Shown here: positions 28,454-49,685 of the stretch, one piece after another
Position numbering within the stretch: the stretch's first letter is position 1
How the letters are laid out: the number at the start of each line of letters is the position of its first letter
From: an uncultured Turicimonas sp.
GTDB lineage: Bacteria; Pseudomonadota; Gammaproteobacteria; Burkholderiales; Burkholderiaceae_F
Reading direction: 5' to 3'
DNA: 64,000 nucleotides
Assembly (NCBI GenBank): GCA_947854175.1
Contig: CANTYJ010000001.1
Coordinates: forward strand, 1 to 64,000
Translations under genes and position numbers: made by a program
The notes under the pieces: generated by a model
What the model saw: the letters and a program-made list of their open reading frames with translations, nothing else
What the model was told of the DNA's origin: nothing
The model's database searches: none

Positions 28454-28488
28454 AAATAAAAATCCGCCTTCGTAGCGGATTTTTATTT
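28454..28488. terminator. Bidirectional rho-independent terminator
   Basis: AAATAAAAATCCGC (28454-28467) and GCGGATTTTTATTT (28475-28488) form a perfect 14-bp stem with a 7-base loop. It serves the isomerase gene and the convergent Hpt gene. Confidence 0.92.
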
Positions 28489-31584: not shown

Positions 31585-32868
31585 TTAAGCAACTTGAGGG
31601 ATATCGGCCAGACACGTAGTATAGGCAGGGCTTAAACGGTAACGAGCCATTCTCCACTGCTCCTCCGAGAGTTTACTGCCGGCATAACAAAGGCAATACT
31701 TACCGAAACGCCGGTTAATTGCATCGACTGCATCAGATAACTTTTGTCTGTCTTTTCTCTGTTCTTCTTCAAACAAATCCATCGGTACAGACTTCATTGG
31801 CACCACTTCGGAAGCATAAACTCCGGCTCGTTTAAACAAATAACCGGGGCGAAAGTACGTATGAAGTAAATCACAAGCCGCCTCTATGATGCTTTTCGAA
31901 TCATTGGTCGCAAAGTTTAGTCCTTTTGCGGGGTAGATATGGTATTGGAGATCATGCTCTCTAAAAGGATTGGTGTTAAGAATAATGCCAATGACATGAG
32001 CTGCTGTTTTTTCTTTTCTTAACGTTCTGGCAGTTTCTTCTGCATGAAAAATGATTGCGCCTTCCAGTTCTTCTTCCGTCGAAATCAACTGATTAAAGCT
32101 TCGGCTTCTTACGACCTGTTTCCTTTGTGCCCTGACCTCTTCCAAAGGTAAACAGCTTTCTCCTCTCAGTTCCAGTACTGTTTGTGCCAAAACAAGGCTA
32201 AACTGCTTTCTTATCCAATCGGGCGGAGTTACTGTCAGATCCCAGGCGGTATAAATACCAAACGAATTAAGTCTTGTCTTTAAACGTCTTCCGACTCCCC
32301 AAATTTCATCGACCGGCTGGCACATTAGAGCTTTTTGTCTTCTGTCTGCTGATAGTTCAAACCAGTTGCACACACCGTTTAAGGAAGGAAACTTTTTTGC
32401 AAGATGGTTGCAATACTTGGCCAATGTTTTTGTCGGAGCAATTCCCACACAAGTCGGAATGCCAACCCATTGGAGTACACGCTCTTTAATATTAGTCCCT
32501 AATGTTGTTAACTGCTCCGGAGTGGTGCTCAAGCCTGACATATCTGCAAATGCTTCGTCAATACTATATTGCTCTACTGCCGGAACTAAGCTGGCAATCG
32601 CAGAGATCATCCGCCCGGACAGGTCTCCGTAAAGCTCATAATTACTGGAAAAAGCCACTACTCCGTTTTTCTTGCAGAAGTCTTCAATTTCGAAAAAGGG
32701 TTGGCACATTTTGATCCCAAGTTTTTTAGCCTCAGCACTTCGCGCAACAACACAACCGTCGTTGTTACTGAGTACAACCACAGGAGTATGTGCAAGGTCA
32801 GGGCGAAAAACCTTTTCACAAGAGGCAAAAAAAGAATTTCCGTCAATTAAGGCAAAAACCGGATCCAT
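31585..32868 (-). CDS. umuC: DNA polymerase V catalytic subunit
   Basis: This 427-residue Y-family polymerase copies past damaged DNA during the SOS response. The catalytic acidic residues are in FALIDGNSFFASCE and YSIDEAFADM, and the little-finger and C-terminal regions match UmuC (FRPGYLFKRAGV, INRRFGKYCLCYAGS). It starts 9 bases after the umuD stop, as in umuDC operons. Control seems to rest on an unusual inverted repeat before umuD. Confidence 0.95.
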   Translation of the reverse strand: MDPVFALIDGNSFFASCEKVFRPDLAHTPVVVLSNNDGCVVARSAEAKKLGIKMCQPFFEIEDFCKKNGVVAFSSNYELYGDLSGRMISAIASLVPAVEQYSIDEAFADMSGLSTTPEQLTTLGTNIKERVLQWVGIPTCVGIAPTKTLAKYCNHLAKKFPSLNGVCNWFELSADRRQKALMCQPVDEIWGVGRRLKTRLNSFGIYTAWDLTVTPPDWIRKQFSLVLAQTVLELRGESCLPLEEVRAQRKQVVRSRSFNQLISTEEELEGAIIFHAEETARTLRKEKTAAHVIGIILNTNPFREHDLQYHIYPAKGLNFATNDSKSIIEAACDLLHTYFRPGYLFKRAGVYASEVVPMKSVPMDLFEEEQRKDRQKLSDAVDAINRRFGKYCLCYAGSKLSEEQWRMARYRLSPAYTTCLADIPQVA

Positions 32869-32877
32869 ACAGTGAAC

Positions 32878-33516
32878 TCATGCTTTTTTGATAATGTAAG
32901 TCACCACACCGACAAAATTCCAGACATCACCTTCTTTTGGAACAATGTCTAAATAAGCGGGATTAGAGCTTTCAGGATGAAGAATAATGTTTCCGTCCCT
33001 TTTGATAAGACGTTTAACCGTGAATTCTTCGTTGATGTTGACAATTACAATATCTCCGTTGCGAGCCTGTTTAGAACGGTCGACCACCAACAAATCTCCT
33101 TGGTCAAGCCCGGCCAAATCCATGGAGTCTCCTTTTACTCTTACAAAGAAGGTCGCAGCCGGAATATCCACCATCATTTCATTCAGATCAATGCGCGCTC
33201 CAACATAACTTTCTGCCGGGGACGGAAACCCTGCCTGGACAAAACTTTCCGCTAAAGGCAGCTCCAGCTTTTCAGGATTAAGACTGGGAAACTGACAGTC
33301 AGGAGGAAGATTCTTTTTAAAGTAAACAGCCTTTTCTATTTGTTCCCGGACCCACTTGGATCCTCCGAGTTTTTTAAAGTCTTCTTTGAGGGCATCTGAA
33401 ATAATCAATGTCGTCACAAACTTCCCCGGCAATGGCTTCCGACCTGCTCCCGGTCTTGCCCCACCCTTTTCAGAAGAAGGCTCAGTTGTTTTTGATGTTT
33501 GTTCTTTCTTATTCAT
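32878..33516 (-). CDS. umuD: UmuD with an added ribbon-helix-helix-like N-terminal domain
   Basis: I start at ATG 33516, after AGAGG; an ATG 30 bases upstream is possible. The last 140 residues are UmuD: the A-G cleavage site in SFVQAGFPSPAESYVG, catalytic Ser in KGDSMDLAG and Lys in FTVKRLIK. The product is 212 residues against about 139 for E. coli UmuD. The extra N-terminus, GGARPGAGRKPLPGKF, VTTLIISDALKEDFKKLGG and SKWVREQIEKA, resembles small RHH regulators, including the one at 3549-3710. This suggests a self-cleaving repressor like UmuDAb of Acinetobacter, with a different DNA-binding fold. Confidence 0.9.
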   Translation of the reverse strand: MNKKEQTSKTTEPSSEKGGARPGAGRKPLPGKFVTTLIISDALKEDFKKLGGSKWVREQIEKAVYFKKNLPPDCQFPSLNPEKLELPLAESFVQAGFPSPAESYVGARIDLNEMMVDIPAATFFVRVKGDSMDLAGLDQGDLLVVDRSKQARNGDIVIVNINEEFTVKRLIKRDGNIILHPESSNPAYLDIVPKEGDVWNFVGVVTYIIKKA

Positions 33517-33523
33517 AAAAAAA

Positions 33524-33565
33524 CCTCTTTTATTGAAAAATAACATACTTTTTCAATAAAAGAGG
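33524..33565 (-). promoter_or_regulatory. 17-bp perfect inverted repeat covering the umuD ribosome site
   Basis: CCTCTTTTATTGAAAAA (33524-33540) is exactly inverted at 33549-33565 with an 8-base spacer. On the umuD transcript the second arm ends in AGAGG, the ribosome site, followed by seven T and the ATG. The element could be a DNA operator, a hairpin hiding the ribosome site, or a terminator. It does not look like a LexA box of the CTGT-N8-ACAG type. Confidence 0.85.
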
Positions 33566-33594
33566 ATAAAAAGAATATCTTTTTTCAAAACAAA

Positions 33595-33618
33595 ACTCCC
33601 GGAACCTATTCCGGGAGT
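33595..33618 (-). terminator. Terminator after the FMN-binding protein gene
   Basis: ACTCCCGGAA (33595-33604) and TTCCGGGAGT (33609-33618) form a 10-bp stem with a 4-base loop, followed on the minus strand by TTTGTTTTG. Confidence 0.85.
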
Positions 33619-33646
33619 TCATTCAGTTCAAAACTGAAAATGCTTA

Positions 33647-33973
33647 TTACTTAGCCTTTGCCAAAGCGTCGTTTACAGCAGCGATGATACCCTTAGAAGA
33701 GTTAGTAGCACCGGCAATTGTTTCTACACCGGCTGTACCGTCTTTCTTAACGATTTCAGGAATAAGGTTATCGATCGGAGCCTGAATGATCATGTCTGTT
33801 TCAGTATGTTTTACAACCTTAACATCAGCAACTTTACCGCCTTTAACTGTTACAGCAACAGTAATTTTACCGTGGTTACCGTCGCCCATACCTTCGTATG
33901 TACCGTCTTTGTATGCAGCCTGAGCAGCTGACATTAAACCAACGCTAGCCAATAAAAGGACTAATTTTTTCAT
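33647..33973 (-). CDS. Small exported FMN-binding (flavinylated) domain protein
   Basis: I start at MKKLVLLLASVGLMSAAQA (ATG 33973), a clear signal peptide; the frame is open upstream without a ribosome site. The mature part of about 90 residues is an FMN_bind domain (YEGMGDGNHGKITVAVTV, IPEIVKKDGTAGVETIAGATNSS). GATNSS fits the site where FMN is attached covalently by ApbE. Such proteins carry electrons to secreted FAD reductases; one is encoded divergently at 34426. Together they probably make a split fumarate-reductase-like system. ApbE is not in the window. Confidence 0.88.
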   Translation of the reverse strand: MKKLVLLLASVGLMSAAQAAYKDGTYEGMGDGNHGKITVAVTVKGGKVADVKVVKHTETDMIIQAPIDNLIPEIVKKDGTAGVETIAGATNSSKGIIAAVNDALAKAK

Positions 33974-48350: not shown

Positions 48351-49685
48351 ATGCCATTCGCGAGAGATCGAAATAGACCCAATTTTTCACATTCAATATT
48401 AAAAATTGAAAGGTATGGGTATTTTGGAAATGTCTTCAAAATTCTTTTTCTGAATCGTTCTTTCTTCTCCGTGACAAGGAATTTCCAAAAAGAAGAGTTT
48501 TATCTTTTTGGAAAGAAATTTTTCAGCCGAAATCTTTCTTCCTGTTTCTCTCAATACTCATTACTTAACATTTTGTTCTCTCGGCTTAACGAAGAACTCA
48601 TCGAACAATCTTCAAAAATTCAAACACTGACAAATAACAATTCTCTATCTTCTACAAACAGAAAGCGAATTCTTTTATTGACAGATCATTTGGCTCAAGT
48701 TGGAGGAGCCGAAACAAGAATATGTAAGACAGCAGAACTTTTGGAACAATTAAAGTTAGTTCCAATAATCTTGGCTCAGCATAATAGCTTCGCTCAGTCT
48801 CATAAATATACAAGTCTCACTTTAGATCTTAGAGATCCTCATTTGCCTTCTATACTCAGTCGCTGGATAGAAAAAGGAAAAATTCACGGAATTGAAATTC
48901 ACGTAAAAAATCCTAGAGTCATTTATGATCTTCCGCTGTTTGCCTGGAGTAAGAAAATTACTATCGGCGCTGTCTTCCACAATGTTTTTCCAATCACAGA
49001 TAGATTACGACAGCAGCTTACTCACTGCCATTATCTTCTGTCCTCCCAGATTAAGATTGTTCCGAATGTCGTCGTGGTAAGGAATTGGACCGATAACTTT
49101 CCGATAGTATGGAAGTACCGTCAACAAAAAACAGCCTTGTTAATTTCACGTTTATCCAAAGACAAGAGTCTTCATTTTTCAAGATTTGTTGATTTCTGCA
49201 GGACAAACAACTTTAAAATTCGCATCGCTTCAGAACACCCGGAAAAACCATGGCAAACTGGTTTCATTCGTTCATTAAATCTAAGCCCGGAAGAATTTAT
49301 TGGACCAATTTCTACATTATCTTACTTAGAAAATCATTCTGATGAATTCCTTTTTGTAGCAGGAGTCGGTCAAATACCGCTGGAAGCATCTTCATTAGGA
49401 TTTCCAGTGGCAGTAATGTCTTCTAAAAAAAAGGCAGAGTTTCCCGAGCCTTTAATTTTTTTAGATAATCAGAATGTCGAATTTCTGAATCAATGGAATT
49501 TTGTTATTAATGAATGTCCATCTCAGGAATTAGAAGCTAACTCGAAAGAATTTTTGGACAGCGTCAATAACGACAAAATTTCAGCTAAGTTTTTTGTTAA
49601 AGAAAAAATTCAAAAAATTCGTGAACCGGGAGAATTGATAAAAATCTACAAAAATTATTTTGTTGATTCGACTACAACTTGTTGA
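48351..49685 (+). CDS. Glycosyltransferase-like protein, possibly acquired
   Basis: The 444-residue product has an A/T-rich, phenylalanine-rich N-terminal 110 residues without a recognised domain, then a GT4/GT-B-like part: KRILLLTDHLAQVGGAETRI (nucleotide-sugar lobe start), a second lobe from TALLISRLSKDKSLHF, and FVAGVGQIPLEASSLGFPVAV in place of the usual GEG...EA donor site. The start is unsure, since no good ribosome site is seen. It is isolated between argD and murB, with base use more A/T-rich than its neighbours, which hints at transfer. The substrate is unknown. Confidence 0.7.
   Translation: MPFARDRNRPNFSHSILKIERYGYFGNVFKILFLNRSFFSVTRNFQKEEFYLFGKKFFSRNLSSCFSQYSLLNILFSRLNEELIEQSSKIQTLTNNNSLSSTNRKRILLLTDHLAQVGGAETRICKTAELLEQLKLVPIILAQHNSFAQSHKYTSLTLDLRDPHLPSILSRWIEKGKIHGIEIHVKNPRVIYDLPLFAWSKKITIGAVFHNVFPITDRLRQQLTHCHYLLSSQIKIVPNVVVVRNWTDNFPIVWKYRQQKTALLISRLSKDKSLHFSRFVDFCRTNNFKIRIASEHPEKPWQTGFIRSLNLSPEEFIGPISTLSYLENHSDEFLFVAGVGQIPLEASSLGFPVAVMSSKKKAEFPEPLIFLDNQNVEFLNQWNFVINECPSQELEANSKEFLDSVNNDKISAKFFVKEKIQKIREPGELIKIYKNYFVDSTTTC

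Follow-up and report, generated by a model that had tools for sequence, protein, structure and literature searches.

The window (the whole stretch of DNA analysed here, 64 kb) carries a umuDC operon on the minus strand, downstream of a gene for an FMN-binding-type protein on the same strand. Between the terminator of that gene and a long palindrome adjoining umuD, about 27 nt are left for any promoter that would transcribe both arms of the palindrome. The features considered are listed in the order of transcription, all on the minus strand.

33593-33620, minus strand: intrinsic terminator of the upstream gene, with a 12-pair stem, shielding umuD from read-through
33524-33565, minus strand: inverted repeat with arms 33549-33565 and 33524-33540 (17/17 nt complementary) and the 8-nt spacer GTATGTTA
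33533-33556, minus strand: proposed operator TTGA-AAAA-GTATGTTA-TTTT-TCAA (TTGA-N16-TCAA), a UmuDAb-type box proposed from its sharing with the umuD genes of relatives, its single copy in the genome, genome scans and the Acinetobacter consensus (PMC11332147)
33524-33528, minus strand: ribosome-binding site AGAGG, the last bases of the downstream arm, 7 nt before the ATG at 33516
33517-33523, minus strand: seven T, forming the gap between palindrome and ATG
32878-33516, minus strand: umuD homologue, 212 aa, with an N-terminal DNA-binding-like extension and a Peptidase S24/UmuD domain
33313-33429, minus strand: proposed ribbon-helix-helix domain, UmuD residues 30-68 (extended segment 30-38, helix 41-49, helix 53-68), from an AlphaFold2 model and weak matches of relatives to ribbon-helix-helix families
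33229-33234, minus strand: predicted self-cleavage site Ala95-Gly96 (VQA/GFPSP), aligned with C24-G25 of UmuD and conserved in relatives
33124-33126, minus strand: predicted catalytic Ser131 (GDSM), from sequence comparison with relatives
33013-33015, minus strand: predicted catalytic Lys168 (FTVKR), from the same kind of comparison
31585-32868, minus strand: umuC homologue (Y-family polymerase, catalytic subunit of Pol V), second gene of the operon

On the minus strand, the palindrome reads CCTCTTTTATTGAAAAA-GTATGTTA-TTTTTCAATAAAAGAGG and is followed by TTTTTTT and the ATG at 33516. The first-pass annotation had described it as a perfect 17-bp palindrome ending in AGAGG, with seven T and the ATG behind it; the arms are indeed 100% complementary and the coordinates agree. 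No other perfect inverted repeat of the window is as long: its arms measure 17 bp and those of the runner-up 14, and the longest arm per shuffle was 8-12 when the whole window was shuffled 20 times with dinucleotides preserved. Two other perfect inverted repeats were recorded, one terminator-like with 14-bp arms, a GC core and a T run (28454-28488), the other AT-rich with 12-bp arms (48482-48514). A second in-frame ATG of umuD is located within the palindrome at 33546; the ATG at 33516 was preferred as the start because it is preceded by AGAGG. The informative core of the palindrome is its inner 24 bp (33533-33556), TTGAAAAAGTATGTTATTTTTCAA, with the TTGA/TCAA arms, rather than the full 17-bp arms. 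The outer arm (CCTCTTTTA/TAAAAGAGG) is not accounted for by the TTGA box; it may make additional contacts with protein or have a secondary role at the RNA level. A search of 33301-33800 for a LexA-type box (CTGT-N8-ACAG) found none, the nearest match having 2 of 8 bases wrong, which bears out an earlier remark that no such box is visible near the palindrome.

From residue ~83 onwards, the umuD product consists of a UmuD/S24 domain (135 bits with the UmuD model at a cut-off of 110; 5.8e-26 for the match to UmuD in the PDB), and the Ala-Gly site, Ser131 and Lys168 are conserved throughout the umuDC-type relatives. E. coli UmuD has nothing that corresponds to the first ~80 residues; within these, the segment GGARPGAGRK (residues 18-27) precedes the proposed ribbon-helix-helix domain. 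As AlphaFold2 was useless when run from the single sequence (pLDDT 33), a run with a 31-row family alignment was used in its place. The resulting model, a monomer, was confident for the S24 domain and had a pLDDT of ~83-93 over residues 41-70 and of 74 over residues 31-40. It is likely that the extension has a ribbon-helix-helix fold, since the modelled succession of extended segment, helix and helix has the ribbon-helix-helix order and the profile matches of relatives agree with it: these were 0.002-0.16 for BrnA_antitoxin and 0.17 for RHH_1, both ribbon-helix-helix families, and all sub-threshold. Comparison of the model with the PDB by Foldseek returned the S24 domain only, among the matches listed, and speaks neither for nor against this N-terminal fold; the N-terminal domain, used as a profile against the PDB, gave no significant match.

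LexA is the usual SOS repressor. In the window's genome (G000, 99.96% complete), no match to full-length LexA was found, which accounts for the absence of a LexA box near umuD; the LexA-profile matches in this genome were the S24 part of the UmuD fusion and one weak S24 hit, with no others. Against the NCBIfam lexA model, the fusion reached 70 bits (cut-off 111) with its S24 part only, and no winged-helix domain was matched. Among 67 Sutterellaceae genomes, 22 encode a LexA over the curated cut-off and none of these 22 the UmuD fusion, which is found in genera without such a LexA. Across 300 Burkholderiales genomes, a LexA over the cut-off was missing from 43 of the 50 with the N-terminal domain and from 93 of the 250 others (Fisher p = 1.5e-10), a count that hangs on the curated LexA cut-off and ignores shared ancestry. 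Several of the Burkholderiales genomes with an N-terminal-domain UmuD contain a lexA-like match of ~93-108 bits that includes the N-terminal part and falls below the cut-off, and a report of a non-canonical betaproteobacterial LexA is cited in PMC13148647. Given both, we softened the description of all N-terminal-domain-UmuD genomes as LexA-less; beyond the window's genome, 'no canonical LexA' is the safe wording because of the lower-scoring lexA-like genes in several genomes.

A TTGA-N-TCAA box precedes the fusion umuD in the window and at 3/3 loci of genus g16 (Parasutterella; 0.14 expected), where it reads TTGAAATAGTATGATTATTTCAA, TTGATATAGTATTATTAAATCAA and TTGATAAAATACGTTAGAAATCAA. In the Sutterellaceae as a whole it was found before the fusion umuD at 10 of 30 loci (~1.1 expected from shuffles), and in Acinetobacter before umuD at all 8 of 8; in both sets, the end of the box is usually located ~10-25 nt 5' of the umuD start. 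For the other Burkholderiales, 20 loci were sampled, all with the same UmuD architecture, and 10 of the 18 testable ones have the box at no more than 40 nt from the umuD start, with 0.18 expected. The box is not universal (0/7 loci in genus g4, 1/6 in g17, 2/5 in g15), its arm spacing varies from N13 to N17, and the window's core GTATGTTA departs from GTWAC. Two genome scans addressed its specificity. The Sutterellaceae-style pattern TTGAWWWWGTANNAYWWWWTCAA occurs at 6 distinct places in the 67 family genomes, 4 of them before a fusion umuD, with 0 matches in genomes with a canonical LexA and 0 for the reversed control in the same 67 genomes. The strict 23-bp pattern TTGANTNNTGTNACANNANTCAA, drawn up after some of the umuD loci had been read, matched 5 places in the 300 Burkholderiales genomes, all at most ~45 nt from an N-terminal-domain umuD; three of the five (G311, G282 and the unread part of the genomes) stood outside the loci from which the pattern was derived or bore out the lack of further copies. 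The reversed control gave 0.

Scanned with three box patterns, the window's genome contains the box in a single copy, and the regulon is therefore probably the umuDC operon alone; the region upstream of recA in this genome is without an obvious box. Two extra box matches in Parasutterella (L124 and L126) do not precede recognisable SOS genes. At two loci where the TTGA box is missing (L026 and L029), a palindrome with TTGCAT half-sites precedes the fusion umuD, and the operator may have changed there together with the DNA-binding domain. At three Parasutterella-type loci (L014, L015 and L020), likewise with no TTGA box, a frame resembling an S24 repressor's end continues straight into umuD.

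We favour, with a probability of about 0.8, the reading that the palindrome serves as an operator at which UmuD, independently of LexA, represses its own umuDC operon, with relief through RecA-stimulated self-cleavage. A repressor operator was one of the options that the first-pass annotation had offered, and the recurrence of the TTGA/TCAA box before the relatives' umuD supports it; the likely repressor, which that annotation had missed, is UmuD itself. Established by computation are the palindrome itself, the domain layout of UmuD, the conservation of its cleavage site and catalytic residues, the lack of a full-length LexA match in the genome and the recurrence of the box; binding to DNA, cleavage stimulated by RecA, the places of promoter and transcript start, and a ribbon-helix-helix fold within a dimer are inferred. 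Uncleaved UmuD dimers, bound to the TTGA/TCAA arms and to the core, would sit over the umuDC promoter and keep the operon off. Upon DNA damage, RecA filaments would stimulate cleavage of UmuD at Ala95-Gly96, which would remove the DNA-binding end and let umuDC be transcribed, and the same cut would produce the UmuD' form used by the polymerase. Overall, one gene would provide an SOS switch that works without LexA, in the manner of UmuDAb. Ribbon-helix-helix repressors commonly bind arm-plus-core sites as pairs of dimers. In a scan of the region before umuD for sigma-70 promoters, none passed; the candidates are weak and place their -35 or -10 element within the palindrome, and relatives show a like overlap of promoter and box, e.g. 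TTGACT-17-TATGAT in L004. If the promoter does overlap the palindrome, the transcript would start inside the repeat and no RNA hairpin could form.

We consider it unlikely that the palindrome acts, alone or on top of an operator, as an RNA hairpin on a transcript starting 5' of it, hiding AGAGG and lowering the translation of umuD. Folded as RNA, it reaches -20.4 kcal/mol (z = -6.5) with AGAGG covered, and in P. muris (L006) the hairpin also extends to the ribosome site (-17.6 kcal/mol). L003 and L004 carry the box too, yet fold no better than shuffled sequence (z = -0.2 and -0.1, respectively, with only the 3' part of the box in the folded fragment of L004), the other relatives yield modest folds that mostly stop short of the ribosome site, and no promoter was seen in the ~27 nt between terminator and palindrome. 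A box adjoining the start codon, moreover, overlaps the ribosome site by position alone. Compensatory changes in the arms were not counted in favour of RNA, as they would equally arise in a palindrome bound by a protein. The translation-blocking hairpin put forward in the first-pass annotation is thus possible on paper and finds no backing in the relatives, where a hairpin over the ribosome site is mostly absent; nor is the layered control envisaged there needed to explain the palindrome, with so little room left by the upstream terminator for a promoter transcribing all of it.

It is highly improbable that the operator serves an unlinked repressor, such as the paralogue G000:C57 or a prophage repressor, instead of UmuD: the N-terminal domain does recur in this genome, in a protein whose S24 domain is degenerate, but the box is single-copy in the genome, follows the umuD fusion across many families and does not occur before this paralogue. 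An intrinsic terminator or attenuator, composed of the hairpin with T7 and ATG behind it and also among the options first offered, is conceivable on paper and barely credible, as the palindrome is listed by a simple terminator scan (stem 17, 4 GC pairs, then TTTTTTTATG) but has an AT-rich stem and a long loop, the upstream gene is already ended ~30 nt earlier by a better terminator, termination before the first ATG of the operon requires a leader RNA that the available space does not allow, and the structure is not conserved in, and gains no backing from, the relatives.

The preferred reading, UmuD autorepression at the TTGA/TCAA box, has its closest counterpart in Acinetobacter UmuDAb, a LexA-independent umuDC repressor in a LexA-less host that cuts itself at Ala83-Gly84 (PMC4807011, PMC11332147) and whose operator is TTGA(N4)GTWAC(N4)TCAA (PMC11332147, PMC4807011). 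A gene search with the family alignment returned, besides Sutterellaceae proteins, Acinetobacter proteins that align over the extension too. Comparison of the N-terminal domains of Sutterellaceae and Acinetobacter with hhalign gave a probability of 95.8% (E 7.9e-9, 37 columns), with the second helix not shared. Common to both systems are a UmuD with an N-terminal DNA-binding end (predicted in the window), an Ala-Gly cleavage site and a Ser/Lys dyad, the place of first gene in umuDC in a genome where no LexA is detectable, a TTGA/TCAA palindrome just 5' of the gene, and a homologous GGxRxGAGRK-strand-helix start of the domain. The window's domain differs in an extra conserved helix (LGGxxWLR); whereas the UmuDAb domain is described as helix-turn-helix-like in the literature, the modelled one looks ribbon-helix-helix. 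The window's box matches the UmuDAb operator in its TTGA/TCAA arms, but is 24 bp long with the core GTATGTTA and N16 instead of N13. Its locus is without a divergent ddrR, a gene reported as Acinetobacter-specific (PMC11332147), and in the S24 tree the Sutterellaceae and Acinetobacter domains were not grouped together (AU p = 0.066). The window's protein was not filed as a member of UmuDAb because ddrR is missing, the box has another core and another spacing, and the S24 domains did not come out as sisters in the tree.

With LexA, the window's UmuD shares a DNA-binding end (predicted in the window) joined to a self-cleaving S24 domain and, by the proposed mechanism, autoregulation and SOS logic, but it has no winged-helix domain and no LexA box. 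With E. coli UmuD, a subunit of Pol V, it shares the C-terminal domain, the cleavage site and the partner UmuC, whereas the E. coli protein is without a DNA-binding domain and is repressed by LexA. The LexA-like S24 repressors of Bacteroidetes, HdiR and Francisella FddR likewise exert SOS-like control where LexA is missing, through other DNA-binding ends; they differ in being of phage-type repressor origin or an S24 family of their own, not UmuD-derived (PMC8565304, PMC13148647).

The N-terminal domain was also encountered in other proteins. In the paralogues G000:C57 (L032:2523-3092) and G064:C1 (L036:6638-7192), it is joined to a degenerate S24 domain without cleavage site and catalytic residues; both genes are flanked by MerR-like and fdhD-like genes, and the protein may regulate formate metabolism without being cleavable. 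Two Parasutterella genomes encode comparable short proteins in which the N-terminal domain is combined with a degenerate S24 domain (L034:1865-2398, L035:1990-2508). In two genomes of the genus, the same small domain forms the C-terminal end of a 163-184 aa protein without S24 domain (L033:1238-1792, L036:1289-1780), the gene of which adjoins an alanyl-tRNA-editing-like gene. Two loci of genus g17 (L030 and L031) contain two adjacent UmuD-like genes, one with the N-terminal domain and one without.

The control of error-prone polymerases by UmuDAb has been regarded as a Moraxellaceae speciality (PMC8565304, PMC11332147). The system of the window is a variant of UmuD-based, LexA-independent control, and our survey suggests that it is common in Burkholderiales; a literature search, with most subscription literature outside its reach, returned no description of this variant for Burkholderiales and no paper with both umuDC and Sutterella. 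The wider view that a ribbon-helix-helix UmuD and a TTGA-box form an SOS switch in its own right, complete in itself and with one protein as sensor, repressor and polymerase subunit, across Sutterellaceae, many other Burkholderiales and Acinetobacter, replacing a lost canonical LexA, and that the Acinetobacter UmuDAb domain is a reduced ribbon-helix fold and not a LexA-like helix-turn-helix, is put forward tentatively, at somewhat below even odds. The proposed domain provides a concrete fold hypothesis for the unexplained DNA-binding end of UmuDAb, and a ribbon-helix-helix fold would give a natural reason for its odd operator through arm-plus-core binding by dimer pairs. Finding the same architecture and box in gut Sutterellaceae, and also in several further families of Burkholderiales, points to a wide distribution of LexA-independent mutagenesis control by UmuD, and DNA-damage sensing without LexA in gut commensals becomes directly testable.
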